From Methanomassiliicoccales archaeon PtaU1.Bin124 (lineage in GTDB: Archaea; Thermoplasmatota; Thermoplasmata; Methanomassiliicoccales; UBA472): a stretch of DNA of 64,000 nucleotides. Under the pieces are notes generated by a model. That model ran no database searches and was not told where the DNA came from. It saw nothing but the letters and a program-made list of their open reading frames with translations. Positions 25,855-58,903 of the stretch are shown here, one piece after another (position 1 is the first letter of the stretch; every line of letters starts with the position of its first letter). Location: NCBI GenBank assembly GCA_002067865.1, contig MVRC01000012.1, positions 157,395 through 221,394 on the forward strand. The letters run 5' to 3'. The position numbers and the translations under genes are program-made.

Positions 25855-26370
25855 TCAAGCTAGGATGGGGAACCTTTTCACGATGCCCATCTCGCCCCAG
25901 CGCTTGCCGCATCCCAGATATTGTCCAGCCTGCACCCTTTCCAGCACGAACAGTGCGAAGATGTAGATGATGTGATCGTCGATGATCGGGTTGTTGGCCG
26001 GGGGGATGTTGCTGGACCAGAGCAGGAGCATCAACAATGTTCCTCCGTAGAACGCCAATCTCATCCCTATGCCCAGTATCAGGGCGACGCCCAACGCCAG
26101 CAGGGCAAGCATGAAGATAACGTCCACGACCGCGTTCCCTGCGATGCTGTGGTAGAACCCCTCCAACAGGCCGCTCGAGCCATACTTCAGATAGCCCTCG
26201 GTCGGCGAGAATCCGTTGATCCAGCCATGTCCTGATTGAGTGGCATAGCCCAGCCCGAACAGCTTGTCCAGGAACGCCCAGAGGAACAGCCACCCGAGCA
26301 ATATTCGCAAACCTCCCCAGCCCCATTCCGTCTTGAAGGCGGGGACCAGATGACCCGGATATTCGCTCAT
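25855..26370 (-). CDS. DoxX/DoxD-like membrane protein
   Basis: The 171-residue protein has four hydrophobic segments and the DoxX-type opening WGWGGLRILLGWLFLWAFLDKLFGLG, followed by a 40-residue loop (GWINGFSPTEGYLKYG). DoxD is a subunit of thiosulfate:quinone oxidoreductase in some archaea, but most DoxX relatives are of unknown function and a thiosulfate role is not supported by neighbours. Just after its stop on the minus strand is a hairpin GGGGG-TCAAAT-CCCCC. Confidence 0.8.
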   Translation of the reverse strand: MSEYPGHLVPAFKTEWGWGGLRILLGWLFLWAFLDKLFGLGYATQSGHGWINGFSPTEGYLKYGSSGLLEGFYHSIAGNAVVDVIFMLALLALGVALILGIGMRLAFYGGTLLMLLLWSSNIPPANNPIIDDHIIYIFALFVLERVQAGQYLGCGKRWGEMGIVKRFPILA

Positions 26371-26434
26371 GAAACTTGCTTGGGAAAAAATGGTATTTAA
26401 TGCTGTCTTAAAAGGAATGAAGGGGAAAGGGGTT

Positions 26435-27382
26435 TCAATTCACATGCTCAGGGGGCGGGCAGGCCTTCTTTCCCCGGTTCTTGATCAGCGAGGCCAGGAT
26501 CGTCACGACCAGGATGCCAACGATGACCAGCAGGGACAGGATGACCGGGATGTGGATGAAGCTGGCCAGCAGCATCTTCGTGCCGACGAACGCGAGGATG
26601 GCAGCCAGACCGTACTTCAGGTAGCAGAACAGGCCCATCACGCTGGCCAGCAGGAAGTACAATGACCTCAGGCCGAGGATGGCGAAGGCGTTGGAGGTGT
26701 AGACGATGAACGGGTCCTGGGTGATGGCGATGATGGCCGGGACGGAGTCTACCGCGAACACGATGTCGGTGGTCTCGACCACCAGCAAGGCCACGAAGAG
26801 CGGAGTGGCCATTAGGATCTCCTTCTTCCACACGAAGAACTTCGACCCCTCGTAGTTCTCGGTGACGCGGAAGACCTTCCTAAAGCCACGAACGACTATG
26901 TTGTGGTCTGGATGGACCTCAGCGTCCTCCTTCTTGATGGCGATCTTGATGGCGGTGAAGATCAGGAACGCCCCGAAGATATAGATGACCCAGTCGAACT
27001 GCTGCACGACCGCTATGCCGGCGAAGATGAACAGGCCGCGGAAGAGCAAAGCGCCCAGGACGCCATAGAAGAGCACCTTGTGATGGTCCTCCTTTGGCAC
27101 CGCGAAGTAGGAGAAGATGAGGATGAACACGAACATGTTGTCGACGCTGAGCGCCTCCTCCATGACGTATCCAGTGGTGAACTCGAGCGCCTTTTCTCCC
27201 CCATACCAATACCACACCAGGATGTTGAAGATGACAGCCAGCGCGACCCAGAACAGCCACATCTTGACGGCTTCTTTCGCCTTGATCTCATGGGCCTTGC
27301 GGTTGAAGAATCCCAGATCAAGGGCAAGCATTGCGATGATGAAAACGAAGAAAAGGATCCATATGAGATTTTGATCAACCAT
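26435..27382 (-). CDS. TerC family membrane protein
   Basis: This 315-residue protein shows the TerC/Alx organisation: MEEALSVDNMFVFILIFSYF and VVETTDIVFAVDSVPAIIAI carry the conserved acidic and Asn residues within membrane segments. Family members are linked to metal (mainly Mn2+) export to exoenzymes and to tellurite resistance. It is preceded by a leader with base-paired elements (27394-27450) and followed 63 bp later by doxX-like. Confidence 0.92.
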   Translation of the reverse strand: MVDQNLIWILFFVFIIAMLALDLGFFNRKAHEIKAKEAVKMWLFWVALAVIFNILVWYWYGGEKALEFTTGYVMEEALSVDNMFVFILIFSYFAVPKEDHHKVLFYGVLGALLFRGLFIFAGIAVVQQFDWVIYIFGAFLIFTAIKIAIKKEDAEVHPDHNIVVRGFRKVFRVTENYEGSKFFVWKKEILMATPLFVALLVVETTDIVFAVDSVPAIIAITQDPFIVYTSNAFAILGLRSLYFLLASVMGLFCYLKYGLAAILAFVGTKMLLASFIHIPVILSLLVIVGILVVTILASLIKNRGKKACPPPEHVN

Positions 27383-27393
27383 CTTGGTTAACT

Positions 27394-27450
27394 CCCAATA
27401 CGCCGTGGCCTACATGGCCACTGTGTGCCGTCATCCAAAGGGGGATTGGG
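27394..27450 (-). promoter_or_regulatory. Structured leader of the TerC gene
   Basis: Between the TATA-like TCTTTATTAACG (minus, about 27456-27467) and the TerC ATG is an outer pair CCCAAT/ATTGGG (27394-27399 with 27445-27450) that encloses a perfect hairpin GTGGCC-TACAT-GGCCAC (27405-27421). I do not recognise the yybP-ykoY consensus that controls bacterial TerC genes. Confidence 0.35.
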
Positions 27451-27503
27451 TGGGCGTTAATAAAGACTGCGGACGCACCACTTGGGAGATCGGGGTTATG
27501 CCA

Positions 27504-28595
27504 TCATGCGAACAGCACCACGCCGATGAAGACCGCGTAGAGGGCGCCGCCCAGCATCAGGCCCCGCACATGTATCTCGTCCTTCCTCGCCTCGAAGAAC
27601 AGGATGACCGCGCTCAGCATGGCGATGAAAATGCTCAGCGCCTGCAGCATCTGTCCCTTGTCGCTCAGGTCGATGGCCCAGTTCGTCATTAGGATACCGA
27701 TGGTCACAGGGATGCACGATTGGAACACCATGGCGCCTGTGATATTGCCGATGGCGAAGGTGTCCTTCCCCTCCCTGATCCAAAGGAACGAGTTGAACTT
27801 CTCCGGCAGTTCCGTGGCGATCGGGACAATGAGCAATGCCAGCACTATGGCCTGGATGCCAAGCGAATGGGACATGAGCTCGATCTGCTCCACGAAAATG
27901 TTCGCTCCTAATATTATCGCCCCGAGCGAGAGGATGATCTGCAGGATTATCTCCCAGGTGTCCGGCTCCTTGGTGCGCAGGACCGAGTCGATCTTCCGCT
28001 CCACCGGGTCTAGCAGACCGTCTATGACCTTTCCGCCCCTCAGCTCCACCTTATCGGTCAGTTTGCAGATGTATAGAGGATCGACCTCGTCATCGGCGCA
28101 GGTCTCGCCGGTCTTCATGGTGTAGTAGACGTAGACCACATAGATCGGCACCAGCAGGCAACCGATGGCCAGGTGGACCTCGTGCAGATCGGCCGGAAGG
28201 AACGCCGCCACCACGGCTATGGAGTAGGCGATGAGGAAGAACTTCAGGTCGCGGCGCATCAGTTGCCCGCAGACCTTCAATGTCTTGCGCTTTCTCTTCT
28301 TGGCGAAGATCAGTACGCTCAGGCCGCAGACGAACAAGGCCAGGGTGGCGAGCATGAACGGCGCGCCGAGGATGGAGCCTACGCCGATCTCCTCGCTGGC
28401 GCCGGTGGACATGAAGAATATGGCGATGATGGGAATGACCGTTTCCGGTAGGGCGGTCCCGACCGCGGCCAGTACCGAACCGACCGCCCCCTCTGAAAGA
28501 TGGAACTTCTTGCCGGCCCATTCCACCCCGTTGGTGAAGAACTCGCAGCCGATCAGAATGATGCCGAGACTGATGATGAACGTCAGTATGTCCAT
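27504..28595 (-). CDS. CaCA superfamily sodium/calcium exchanger-like protein
   Basis: This 363-residue protein has two inverted halves, each with an alpha repeat: GTALPETVIPIIAIFF with GSILGAPFML in the N-half, and IATELPEKFNSFLWIR with GNITGAMVFQ in the C-half. The acidic residues in the PE motifs coordinate the cation. A cytoplasmic loop of about 75 residues (around 165-240) separates the halves. Ion preference (Ca2+, K+, Na+ or H+ coupled) cannot be told. Confidence 0.92.
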   Translation of the reverse strand: MDILTFIISLGIILIGCEFFTNGVEWAGKKFHLSEGAVGSVLAAVGTALPETVIPIIAIFFMSTGASEEIGVGSILGAPFMLATLALFVCGLSVLIFAKKRKRKTLKVCGQLMRRDLKFFLIAYSIAVVAAFLPADLHEVHLAIGCLLVPIYVVYVYYTMKTGETCADDEVDPLYICKLTDKVELRGGKVIDGLLDPVERKIDSVLRTKEPDTWEIILQIILSLGAIILGANIFVEQIELMSHSLGIQAIVLALLIVPIATELPEKFNSFLWIREGKDTFAIGNITGAMVFQSCIPVTIGILMTNWAIDLSDKGQMLQALSIFIAMLSAVILFFEARKDEIHVRGLMLGGALYAVFIGVVLFA

Positions 28596-28649
28596 GCGAC
28601 CAGGGAGCCTATCATCGGTCGGTTAATAAAGGTATCAGATGCGATAATT

Positions 28650-29063
28650 CTACCATCCGCCCATGGAGCGCTGTAGGTAGGCCAGTATCTCGTCCCTCGA
28701 GCGACGGAAGGCCTGCAGCTTCTCCTCATCCGTGCCTTCCACGACGGAAGGGTCCTGGAATGGTCTATGGATTATCTTGTTGCCGGGGAAGAAAGGACAG
28801 GACCGGGCGGCATCGTCGCATACGGTCACGACCACATTGAACATCCAGCCCCGGAACTCGTTGATGCTCTTCGAGCGCTGGGCGGAGATGTCGATGCCTA
28901 TCTCCTTCATGCAGGCGACGGCCATTGGATGGACCGAAGAAGGTTCCACGCCGCCGCTGTACGCCTTCCATTTGTCCCCATACTTTGCGTTTACCAATCC
29001 CTCGGCCATCTGGGACCTGGCGGAATTATGCGTGCAGATGAAAAGGACGCTCCTCTTGTCCAT
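28650..29063 (-). CDS. Low-molecular-weight phosphatase / arsenate reductase (ArsC, thioredoxin-coupled type)
   Basis: This is a 137-residue protein with the catalytic CX5R loop at residues 10-16 (CTHNSAR), SQMAEG, the general acid region HRPFQDPS, and a second Cys pair region VVTVCDDAARSCPFF that matches redox Cys in arsenate reductases. Arsenate reduction is thus more likely than protein tyrosine dephosphorylation. The start at 29063 is used because CX5R normally lies at residue ~10; an open frame continues 30 codons upstream without family similarity. No other ars gene is near. Confidence 0.88.
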   Translation of the reverse strand: MDKRSVLFICTHNSARSQMAEGLVNAKYGDKWKAYSGGVEPSSVHPMAVACMKEIGIDISAQRSKSINEFRGWMFNVVVTVCDDAARSCPFFPGNKIIHRPFQDPSVVEGTDEEKLQAFRRSRDEILAYLQRSMGGW

Positions 29064-29187
29064 GCGAAGGGTATTGGTGGTGATAGGGATGAATAACTTG
29101 CCATATCCTGCAACGATGATCTGGTTTCTGGGAATAACGATATCATTGCCCACACCCTTGCACGAACGTCAAGGTGGCCAATTTCTG

Positions 29188-29549: not shown

Positions 29550-29578
29550 AAAAAAAGACCCTGGGACTAGTTCCCAGG
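29550..29578 (-). terminator. Terminator overlapping the DUF2769-like stop codon
   Basis: On the minus strand CCTGGGA-ACTAG-TCCCAGG is a perfect 7-bp hairpin followed by GTC and seven T. The stop codon TAG (29567-29569) lies in the loop. Confidence 0.75.
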
Positions 29579-29881
29579 TTCTATGGTTTCCCTGCCAGCT
29601 CCTCTTACATCGAGCTCTGCGCCATTGATGCAGTAGTACTGGTGCATGAGGCCCCATTCCTGAGCCACCGGACAGGACGCGCAGATGCATCCATTCTCCT
29701 CGAACGAGCAGGTGCCCTTGCCTATGATACAGAAGGCAAGGTCCGACTTCGCATCCGCACATTCGTTGTATGAGGGGCATTGAGGGCAGTTGCAGAGCAT
29801 CTTCAATTTTCTTGTTTCCTGCTCCCTTCCCTGCCTAGACATCCTGGACCATCTGTCCCGATTCTTCTCGAAATTGTCCAT
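29567..29881 (-). CDS. DUF2769-like Cys-rich protein
   Basis: This is a 104-residue protein with two Cys clusters: MLCNCPQCPSYNECADAK (residues about 28-45) and GTCSFEENGCICASCPVAQE with QYYCINGAE after it. The C-x-C-x2-C pattern resembles DUF2769, a small family frequent in methanogens. It probably binds metal; the role is unknown. The start at 29881 follows GAGG by about 9 nt. It is convergent with the DUF6951-like gene and ends in a terminator. Confidence 0.75.
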   Translation of the reverse strand: MDNFEKNRDRWSRMSRQGREQETRKLKMLCNCPQCPSYNECADAKSDLAFCIIGKGTCSFEENGCICASCPVAQEWGLMHQYYCINGAELDVRGAGRETIEPGN

Positions 29882-30006
29882 GGGTGTTTTCCTCATCTTC
29901 CTGATACAATTTACCTTCAACGACTAGATATTGATTTGCTTCCGCTAGGTGTTAATCCAGTTAGAAAAAAAATGGAAGTGGTTTGGTTCGGTCTGGCACG
30001 ATCGGC

Positions 30007-30351
30007 CTAGCGCCTTCCCATCTGCTGGGTGGCCTGCATGTTGCACTGGCCGGAGCATGCGCCGGAGCGCACGCAGTTCTGGTCCATGTTCTGAACCATG
30101 TTCCCGCTGCCGGTTCCGCTCATGTCGCAGGTCCTGTCCCTGGTCTGATTTTGCAACATGTCGGGCGTTCCGTCGCACGTTCCGTCGCATATGCCGTCGC
30201 ACGTACCATCGCACGTTCCGTCGCACGAGCCGTCACGGGCCTGTGTTAACGTTCCCGCGCCCGTGTTACCGGCCGCGAACGCGACCGGCATGAGCAAGGC
30301 CGCGCCGAGCAGCACCGCGAAGGATGCGATGAGAATTGTCTTGATCCTCAC
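30007..30351 (-). CDS. Secreted Cys-rich protein with CDGT repeats
   Basis: A 114-residue protein with a clear signal peptide (TILIASFAVLLGAALLMPVAFA, cleavage after AFA). The mature part has CDGT repeated about five times (residues 43-62), encoded by 12-bp tandem repeats, then CDMSGTGSGNM, NCVRSGACSGQCNMQ. All Cys are in the exported part. No family recognised; metal binding or disulfide crosslinking is possible. The start is GTG with GGAGGTGA 5 nt upstream. Three TGAAAAGTG repeats lie before its promoter, next to a winged-helix gene. Confidence 0.8.
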   Translation of the reverse strand: MRIKTILIASFAVLLGAALLMPVAFAAGNTGAGTLTQARDGSCDGTCDGTCDGICDGTCDGTPDMLQNQTRDRTCDMSGTGSGNMVQNMDQNCVRSGACSGQCNMQATQQMGRR

Positions 30352-30422
30352 TTGTTCACCTCCTAGCAGGCAAGTCCTGCACGACCGAACCTATCTCGGT
30401 GAAAAGGTTAATGAACCTATCG

Positions 30423-30453
30423 TGAAAAGTGATGAAAAGTGGCGTGAAAAGTG
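30423..30453. promoter_or_regulatory. Three TGAAAAGTG direct repeats upstream of the CDGT-repeat gene
   Basis: Exact copies lie at 30423-30431, 30433-30441 and 30445-30453. On the minus strand they sit just upstream of a TATA-like TCATTAACC (about 30406-30414), a position suited to an activator. The neighbouring winged-helix protein ends 10 bp away and is a candidate binder. Confidence 0.55.
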
Positions 30454-30462
30454 AAAACTGGC

Positions 30463-31017
30463 TCATTCCCGGGCATAGGTGAGGTCCACCTTCACCCGGT
30501 TCGTCGAGCCGTACCGTTCCTTGCTCACGACGCGCTTCTCGATGAGCTTGTCGATGGTGCGGGAGACCTTTGCGTCGGACCACTTCAATTTGGTGATGAG
30601 ATCCTTCTGCAGCATCTCCCCGCCGGCGTCTACGATGCTGCGATACATCTCCCTTTCATCCCCGTTAAGGAGGCGGAGGACGAGGTAGTCCGATTCCGAT
30701 ATGCTCTCATCCTTCTCCTCCACCTTCACCGGTTCCGCGGGGGTCGCGGGCGCCTCTTGCGCAGGTGCAGGCGCATTCACATTAACGACCGCGTCCTCAT
30801 GCTTCCCGCGATATAATAGGACCCAAGCTCCGATGGCGATCAGGGCCACGCCCACCCCCATGAGAGCGATGTTGGTCAGGCTGTAGTTGGCCGTTCTGCT
30901 CCCCATATCGCGCATACCGCCTGAACCCACTTCCGGGGTCAGCAGGCCGATCGCGATGGCCAGAACCCCGATGAGCATCAGACAGACCGCCAATACCTTC
31001 CTCGTTCTCGGGCTCAT
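30463..31017 (-). CDS. Membrane-anchored winged-helix regulator
   Basis: A 184-residue protein: two membrane helices (VLAVCLMLIGVLAIAIGLL and IALMGVGVALIAIGAWVLLY), a Pro/Ala/Glu-rich linker (about 75-105), and a C-terminal winged helix (SDYLVLRLLNGDEREMYRSI, LQKDLITKLKWSDAKVSRTIDKL). The DNA-binding domain faces the cytoplasm. It resembles archaeal membrane-bound MarR/DUF7343-type regulators. TATA TTTTTTAATGG lies about 30 bp upstream, so the mRNA is almost leaderless. It probably controls the CDGT-repeat gene directly downstream. Confidence 0.85.
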   Translation of the reverse strand: MSPRTRKVLAVCLMLIGVLAIAIGLLTPEVGSGGMRDMGSRTANYSLTNIALMGVGVALIAIGAWVLLYRGKHEDAVVNVNAPAPAQEAPATPAEPVKVEEKDESISESDYLVLRLLNGDEREMYRSIVDAGGEMLQKDLITKLKWSDAKVSRTIDKLIEKRVVSKERYGSTNRVKVDLTYARE

Positions 31018-57308: not shown

Positions 57309-58903
57309 ATATGGTATTTTCTAGAAAGCCATTGAAATTTTTGACAATTTTGATGTTAATACAGATATCATTATTTTTATGGATAATCTCCAGCGTATCT
57401 ATCCATACATTTTCTCCCGACTCTTTTTATTATGTTACACAAATGCCGATAATATTCTGGGTAGGTTTAGCAATTTGGGCAATTACTTTATCATTCAAGA
57501 TAAAATGGACAAATTTATTTTCAAAAAATATTAGTCACATTATCGATTTATGTTTATTACTTCTAATAATTTTGTTTTTGTTTGGTTTACCATGTTTTAT
57601 TTATGATAACTATCGATTTTCAGATAGCCTTAAAGTTATTAATGATGTTAATAATCTGATAAGCTCTGGTCAGTTTATTTTATCTGGGGAGTTAAATTAT
57701 CTTTCATCTGCACCAGGTTTTCATCTTTTTTCTGCGAATATTTCTATTATAACCGATACTTCTGTATTTGATATTGCAAAATATTATCCGATCTTCATAT
57801 TTGTGTTAATCTGTATTGTACTTTATTCAATAGCAATATTTTTTTCGGCTAAATACGCGATATTTGCCCCAATCATGTTTCTAGGTCTCTCTTGGACTCA
57901 GGAATACCATTTTGCCCCACAATCTTTTGCCATAATATTATATTCATTTTTTATTTATGTTATCATTAAAAATTGGAATGAAGATTCATCTTCATACAAA
58001 TATATATTAATCATGTTAATAATGATATTTTCAATTACTATAAGCCACTTGGGAACTCCTTTATTTGTCATACTAAATATTTTATTCATTATTATTTTAT
58101 TTTCCATTTCTAAAAAAAGGTCTCATAATCTTACATTGAAAAGTGTTCCTTCGTTCAATCTATTAATATTAAATATTTGCGTTTGGGTATCTTGGTTAAT
58201 TTATATATCTGATGGAATAATGAGTTTATTTATCAATTTAGTCACAAATTCAATTAACAATTTGCTCTTGGGCGAAGTATCTCTCTCGAATAGTATAGCT
58301 TCGAATCCGACTTATGATTTCGTTGTCGTTTCCGATATTCGCATTGTTATTGGTATTATACAAATTCTACTCGGATTCGCAATGTTATTTTTCTTTAGAA
58401 AAAATATCAAGTTGGCAACGATTTTAGGCGGTATTTTCCTTGGATCCTTTTCTTTTGCAATATTGTCGCCCTCCTTAGGAGGACTTTATTTTGGTCGATC
58501 ATTTATTTTTTCTTCAATTATTGTATCAATAATGTTCATTGCCGCAATCAAATATTTTCCCCGTCCCTCTACAAAAATATTTTTTAATATGATTATTTGT
58601 TTTATAATAATTACATTATTCTTAATCCCCGTTACTCATTATGCGGGAGATGGATTGGAATTTATTTCCGATTCGCAGCTCCAAGAAAAAATGTATGCAG
58701 AATGCCTCAATATTTCATTGTACCACCCTACAACATATGAAATATATAATAATATATATGATAATAAATATTATTCATATTCTACGGCATTTTATAATTA
58801 TTACTATCAACGTATGTCCGCTGGAGATATTTATAATAAATATTACATTTTAATGAATCATGACATTATTTATAATAATAATGAATTTAGAATATATGAT
58901 TAG
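57305..58903 (+). CDS. Polytopic membrane protein, glycan polymerase or GT-C-like
   Basis: A 532-residue protein with about 11-13 hydrophobic segments and an extracytoplasmic loop after the fourth (YDNYRFSDSLKVINDVNNLI, GQFILSGELNYLSSAPGFHL), a layout seen in polysaccharide polymerases and GT-C mannosyltransferases. No catalytic DD or DxD motif is certain. Very AT-rich codons. The C-terminus is exported, Tyr/Asn-rich (YNNIYDNKYYSYSTAFYNYY). Role in building or joining glycan repeats is inferred from neighbours. Confidence 0.75.
   Translation: MNMVFSRKPLKFLTILMLIQISLFLWIISSVSIHTFSPDSFYYVTQMPIIFWVGLAIWAITLSFKIKWTNLFSKNISHIIDLCLLLLIILFLFGLPCFIYDNYRFSDSLKVINDVNNLISSGQFILSGELNYLSSAPGFHLFSANISIITDTSVFDIAKYYPIFIFVLICIVLYSIAIFFSAKYAIFAPIMFLGLSWTQEYHFAPQSFAIILYSFFIYVIIKNWNEDSSSYKYILIMLIMIFSITISHLGTPLFVILNILFIIILFSISKKRSHNLTLKSVPSFNLLILNICVWVSWLIYISDGIMSLFINLVTNSINNLLLGEVSLSNSIASNPTYDFVVVSDIRIVIGIIQILLGFAMLFFFRKNIKLATILGGIFLGSFSFAILSPSLGGLYFGRSFIFSSIIVSIMFIAAIKYFPRPSTKIFFNMIICFIIITLFLIPVTHYAGDGLEFISDSQLQEKMYAECLNISLYHPTTYEIYNNIYDNKYYSYSTAFYNYYYQRMSAGDIYNKYYILMNHDIIYNNNEFRIYD

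Follow-up and report, generated by a model that had tools for sequence, protein, structure and literature searches.

The window (the whole stretch of DNA that was analysed, 64,000 nucleotides from Methanomassiliicoccales archaeon PtaU1.Bin124) contains, on its minus strand, a gene for a predicted membrane-tethered regulator and, 111 bases downstream on the same strand, a gene for a predicted secreted protein. The promoter between them carries an array of repeated half-sites around a TATA-like element. The features, in the order in which the coding strand is read, are as follows.

30463..31017, minus strand: membrane-tethered regulator, 184 amino acids (Pfam PF24034 and AlphaFold model)
30452..30458, minus strand: half-site O0, GTTTTCA, overlapping O1 by two bases
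30445..30453, minus strand: half-site O1, CACTTTTCA
30433..30441, minus strand: half-site O2, CACTTTTCA
30423..30431, minus strand: half-site O3, CACTTTTCA, 23 bp from O4
30407..30416, minus strand: TATA-like element TTCATTAAC between O3 and O4 (from sequence)
30400..30406, minus strand: half-site O4, CTTTTCA, directly downstream of the TATA-like element, a position kept in relatives
30007..30351, minus strand: secreted partner, 114 amino acids, GTG start, ribosome site GGAGGTG (open reading frame)
30166..30227, minus strand: 12-bp tandem repeat encoding CDGT (Tandem Repeats Finder, score 89, 5.2 copies)

The regulator is predicted to consist of a first transmembrane helix (about residues 3-26), an external, Met-containing loop (GSGGMRDMGSRTANY), a second transmembrane helix (47-76), a flexible Pro/Ala linker and a DUF7343 winged helix (108-177). 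This topology is based on hydropathy and one AlphaFold model, in which both helices are of membrane length, the linker has low confidence and the winged helix has a pLDDT above 90. The protein scores 47.2 bits (cut-off 27.6) against DUF7343 (PF24034), whose function is unknown according to Pfam, and the C-terminal domain of all 38 of the 38 aligned regulators matches this profile at E <0.001. With a predicted DNA-binding domain and a transmembrane region in one protein, the regulator has the anatomy of the transmembrane transcription regulators (TTRs), and on these grounds it would function as a one-component regulator of the transmembrane kind. We do not class it as a MarR or ArsR protein because it scores under the respective cut-offs: 20.9 bits (PF12802, cut-off 27) and 14.1 bits (PF01047, cut-off 24.6) for MarR, and 16.2 bits (NF033788, cut-off 55) for ArsR/SmtB metalloregulators. 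Many of its relatives match MarR profiles at E <0.001, so a distant MarR relationship of the winged helix is likely, and a Foldseek search with this domain placed ArsR- and MarR-type repressors near the top, none at E <0.001. A search for solved structures related to the regulator by sequence found none. The protein also falls outside the ArnR family, with the reverse domain order and no HAMP match. In a profile search of the host genome, there is a single DUF7343 gene above the cut-off.

The partner has a signal peptide followed by a mature part that is rich in Cys, Asp and Met and contains nine Cys and the CDGT repeats (signal peptides were assigned from hydropathy, ribosome site and position); it matched no Pfam family in a profile search and is a candidate metallothionein-like protein, a kind that binds metal through clustered Cys/His. 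The first-pass annotation had recognized a CDGT-repeat secreted protein next to a two-helix, winged-helix protein, and had read the repeats as a 12-bp DNA repeat. The open reading frames, the DUF7343 match, the modelled helices and the Tandem Repeats Finder array bear this out. The idea that the CDGT array is what is conserved in the secreted protein was rejected, as relatives have other repeats or none. The array is lineage-specific; what relatives share, judging from their sequences, is a secreted protein of small size with many Cys, Asp, His and Met residues. A radical-SAM-modified Cys-repeat peptide was also rejected (TIGR04114, 14.5 bits, cut-off 20); a pattern search of the window's long open reading frames found no radical-SAM Cys motif.

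Five TTTTCA half-sites stand in the promoter. In coding-strand order, they read GTTTTCA, three times CTTTTCA and then, 23 bp on, a further CTTTTCA, and the last two (O3 and O4) straddle the TATA-like element. Three repeats upstream of the TATA had been reported initially; all three are real, but the array is larger, with five half-sites that flank the TATA-like element. Those missed correspond to TGAAAAC at 30452 and, past the TATA-like element, TGAAAAG at 30400. The sequence TGAAAAGTG is found at 30423, 30433 and 30445, plus a stray copy at 58137; these four copies in the window compare with 0.35 expected, and no shuffle reached four. The combination CTTTTCA-N(1-26)-CTTTTCA is unique to this promoter in the 2.2-Mb host genome. 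A chance origin of the repeats was rejected on the strength of the shuffle excess, the uniqueness in the genome and the conservation across loci. We also rejected a multi-gene regulon that uses the same operator in the host genome, since no other paired site occurs there; with one DUF7343 gene and one paired-site promoter, the system therefore looks like one regulator with one target. No bacterial sigma-70 promoter was found, as expected for an archaeon.

Regulator homologues were detected in 16 of 101 relatives searched. Within the order, the partner is adjacent to the regulator in 14 of the 15 regulator-bearing genomes, and nearly every regulator found is directly followed by a gene for a signal-peptide protein with abundant Cys, Asp, His or Met. 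Across 61 genomes, 14 have both genes, 1 has only the regulator, 6 have only the partner and 40 have neither (Fisher p = 2e-8, uncorrected for relatedness); in the regulator-only genome, the regulator's secreted Met/His-rich neighbour is convergent. The genes flanking the pair vary by family (antiporter, gamma-lyase, isopropylmalate-type dehydrogenase), and thus the pair stays together while its surroundings change. In the class Thermoplasmata, 90 of 300 genomes have regulator homologues, a tally that includes distant DUF7343 relatives and in which membrane helices were checked for part only.

The pair and the operator geometry TTTCA-N18/19-TTTCA recur in Thermoplasmatota, Theionarchaea and DPANN archaea. 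Among 54 non-redundant loci with full flanks, 32 have this geometry downstream of the regulator, compared with a mean of 0.08 and a maximum of 2 in dinucleotide shuffles and with 5 of 5386 other windows taken from these loci as controls (because the sequences share ancestry, the shuffles and p-values make them look more independent than they are, which the holdout loci and the clustered correlations given below partly offset). The start-to-start spacing peaks sharply at 23 bp (21 cases) and 24 bp (11 cases), and in relatives a TATA-like sequence lies between the paired sites, for example CCATATACC in L040 and TTTTATACA in L003. The sequence GTTTTCACTTTTC of the O0/O1 region is also present in L002, L003, L004, L006 and L011. 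The holdout comprised twenty further, more distant Thermoplasmatota regions, which were kept out of the motif definition; 12 of the 19 new regulators in these regions have the site pair, and 14 have either the pair or a TGAAA-N4-TTTCA palindrome. In family f6, represented by one genus (L009, L010, L012, L013 and L015), the repeats read TTTGCA and O3 is degenerate, with the last TTTCA kept. The winged helix of this genus also differs (LQRDIV, MGN), and the two changes could possibly represent a coupled change in specificity.

At five partner-like genes that lack a regulator (L157, L159, L160, L161 and L162; L158, also listed as an orphan partner, is a different, larger protein), the site pair was not found. 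The operator is thus tied to the regulator rather than to the partner. That the repeats might be absent in relatives with both genes had been raised as an objection at the outset; they persist in such relatives and are missing where the regulator is missing. Together with the conservation of the pair, this pattern gives good support to the surface sensing loop that had been proposed. (Three of the orphan partners, L160 in G006, L161 in G013 and L162 in G010, have another promoter repeat, GGTTCGA-n-CTTG, with copies about 21 bp apart, which may be recognized by another regulator.) At L017 (1027-1749) and L018 (about 963-1743, reverse orientation), DUF7343 relatives that lack membrane helices have a TTTCA-N18-TTTCA operator ahead of a conserved DUF1638 gene; the operator therefore goes with the winged helix and is not limited to the membrane form. 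Nor does the operator itself report metal, since the regulators of L110-L112 have loops poor in Met, His and Cys, yet have the same operator, with other target genes. In L110 and L111, the operator precedes larger secreted proteins, and one of these loci also has a palindrome upstream of the regulator.

The loop between the two helices is short. It contains Gly-Met or His-Met in almost all Thermoplasmata members, with Gly-His also seen in Thermoplasmatota, and two invariant Cys, usually as CxHGxxCPM, in DPANN archaea and Theionarchaea. The loop of the window's regulator has two Met, and neither His nor Cys. The combined fraction of Met, His and Cys in the loop correlates with that in the mature partner (Spearman 0.65, n=51 pairs), and the correlation is 0.75-0.81 when regulators are clustered at 90-50% identity (39, 34, 23 and 16 clusters). 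When only Met is counted, the correlation drops to 0.31-0.51 and loses significance at 50% identity. Three genomes have two tandem pairs each (L093/L094, L095/L096 and L089/L099), which are within-genome controls of this match. In each, the loop matches its own partner, a Met-rich loop going with a Met/His-rich partner and a Gly/Gln loop with a Gln/Asp/Arg-rich one. Some marine Thermoplasmatota partners are rich in Tyr, Asp and Trp, with 0-3 Cys. At L085, L089, L093, L095, L105 and L107, often within tandem regulator-partner pairs, are secreted proteins with an extreme content of Met, His, Glu and Cys (e.g. MMDGNMMTGMG and HEHNEECEQHEYQECEE), which are likely metal sponges.

DPANN members have the palindrome GAAACTAGTTTC upstream of the TATA. 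In the form GAAAC[CT][AG]GTTTC, it occurs at 19 of 28 DPANN regulators, versus 5 background hits in 70.5 kb, and this relaxed palindrome was not found at the other 9 of the 28 loci. It is usually followed by CTTATAAGG and a TTTCA. In Micrarchaeota, the palindrome precedes the regulator gene, just downstream of the regulator's own TATA-like element, which suggests self-control. The genes neighbouring DPANN and Theionarchaea regulators encode HMA proteins, CPC-type P1B ATPases, cupredoxin, DsbD_2 and FtrD-like proteins. An HMA motif is encoded on the same strand within about 450 bases downstream at 15 of the 28 DPANN regulators, and the HMA gene is often the first behind the operator. The L054 cluster, which consists of regulator, operator, a secreted Cys-rich protein, a DsbD_2-cupredoxin protein, an HMA protein and a CPC ATPase, unites both kinds of partner (secreted Cys-rich protein and copper genes). 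In Thermoplasmatota, a P-type ATPase adjoins L036 and a plastocyanin-type copper protein adjoins L046. A regulator with a two-Cys loop is present in 138 of 279 genomes of L055's DPANN phylum (E 1e-20 or better), a frequency that is high for such small genomes.

With the gene pair, the operator geometry and its conservation, its absence at partners lacking a regulator, the loop-partner covariation and the copper-gene neighbours all observed, we consider it probable that the regulator is a repressor held in the membrane which, on sensing a soft metal outside the cell (probably a copper-like one), lifts its repression of a secreted protein that binds metal. Support for the circuit itself is strong; DNA binding, repression, the identity of the metal and the function of the partner are what we infer. 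The regulator would be anchored by its two helices, with the Met/His/Cys loop facing outwards and the DUF7343 winged helix within the cell. In the resting state, TTTTCA half-sites upstream and downstream of the TATA would be covered by winged helices, which probably act as dimers or higher oligomers, so that TBP/TFB are blocked, and the upstream array could allow cooperative binding by membrane-held dimers. An external soft metal (most likely copper-like) would bind the loop, the DNA-binding domains would let go, and the secreted partner, rich in metal ligands, would be made and bind metal at the surface of the cell. The DPANN version of the switch, which has two loop Cys, would control HMA chaperones and copper ATPases. 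The idea of a metal as the outside signal, put forward initially, is supported by the Met/His/Cys loop, its covariation with the partner and the copper genes that neighbour DPANN members. For the window's own copy, whose loop has two Met without His or Cys, this case is at its weakest, and copper is an extrapolation here.

Part of this evidence could be read in other ways. The signal might not be a metal: the regulator could respond to the secreted partner itself or to some other envelope cue, and the loop would resemble the partner because the two interact. The pairs L094 and L096, in which loop and partner covary although neither is rich in metal ligands (a Gly/Gln loop and a Gln/Asp/Arg-rich partner), would fit this, as would the single regulator and single target of the host genome. 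However, the HMA and copper-ATPase neighbours in DPANN archaea would be left unexplained, and some members there have no adjacent secreted partner; we regard this reading as unlikely. The loop might instead be a redox or disulfide sensor, responding to oxygen, oxidants or sulfide, an idea encouraged by the two invariant loop Cys of DPANN members, the FtrD-like and DsbD_2 neighbours and the Cys-rich composition of several partners. Against this, the Thermoplasmatota loops examined, including that of the window, have no Cys and contain Gly-Met or Gly-His instead, while DPANN loops carry a CPM or CPH motif, which is a usual soft-metal site, and occur beside HMA proteins and CPC ATPases. Redox sensing seems to us very unlikely.

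The direction of control could also be the opposite, with the regulator acting as an activator that recruits TBP/TFB from upstream sites. The many sites upstream of the TATA would suit activation too, with O0-O3 lying where archaeal activators bind, and ArnR, which is also membrane-bound, activates (PMC6396743). However, what varies least is the half-site just past the TATA, 23-24 bp from O3, and binding there should exclude TFB or RNA polymerase, which makes repression likelier than activation. The Micrarchaeota palindrome, just downstream of the regulator's own TATA-like element, likewise speaks against activation, which we judge quite improbable. Returning to the metal-responsive repressor, we see an even chance that it represents a widespread archaeal group of single-protein copper sensors that span the membrane, present in about a third of the sampled Thermoplasmata genomes (distant DUF7343 relatives included) and about half of one sampled DPANN phylum. 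In this group, the external Met/His/Cys loop would release the DUF7343 repressor from a TTTCA operator that straddles the TATA, and would co-evolve with a secreted metal-binding partner of matching composition.

To our knowledge, ECF sigma factors are absent from archaea, and in many archaea two-component systems are few. CnrYXH is an ECF sigma/anti-sigma metal sensor. Such systems likewise signal metal from outside to inside and control envelope metal handling, but do so with several proteins and a sigma factor, whereas here one protein carries the DNA-binding domain. CopR is a cytoplasmic Lrp-type protein with a TRASH domain. In Pyrococcus furiosus it also serves an archaeal copper response, but is a copper-sensing metalloregulator without membrane helices (PMC7830388). 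TTRs such as ToxR and TcpP share the fusion of a DNA-binding domain to membrane helices; their survey contains no DUF7343 group with a fixed TATA-straddling operator, and the terms MarR, metal, copper and operator did not turn up in a word search of it (PMC10269533). ArnR and ArnR1 of Sulfolobus acidocaldarius are also archaeal one-component, membrane-bound proteins with an HTH and two transmembrane helices, and both boxes of their target promoter are needed for binding (PMC6396743). However, in these proteins the HTH lies at the N-terminus and the two transmembrane helices at the C-terminus, with HAMP and sensor domains also present, an order opposite to that of the regulator described here, and they activate archaellum and pili on starvation through inverted-repeat boxes of another sequence (PMC6396743).

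In the openly readable literature on DUF7343, archaeal membrane-bound copper regulators and DPANN copper regulation, we found no earlier account of the domain or of this circuit, although one could have been overlooked. What appears to be new is that DUF7343 is combined with a membrane anchor of two helices and goes together with an operator and a partner, and the same-family regulators beside copper genes in other archaea suggest a widespread, undescribed form of external-metal sensing. If true, this would be a one-protein answer, in which operator, target and sensor loop are predictable from sequence across several phyla. DUF7343, a domain of unknown function, would gain a likely DNA motif, metal handling in small-genome DPANN archaea would gain a regulatory handle, and the loop-partner matching would let each copy's signal be tested.

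In the window, an ion/metalloid gene cluster lies near the pair at 25855-29153, with an ArsC-like LMW phosphatase and TerC-like and cation-exchanger-like membrane proteins (the latter two assigned by eye). These neighbours (ArsC-like, TerC-like, exchanger and antiporter) suggest ion or metalloid handling only in general. Directly downstream of the pair, on the same strand, is a gene for a Cys-rich DUF2769 protein (29567-29920), at which a terminator-like hairpin is found (29560-29578).
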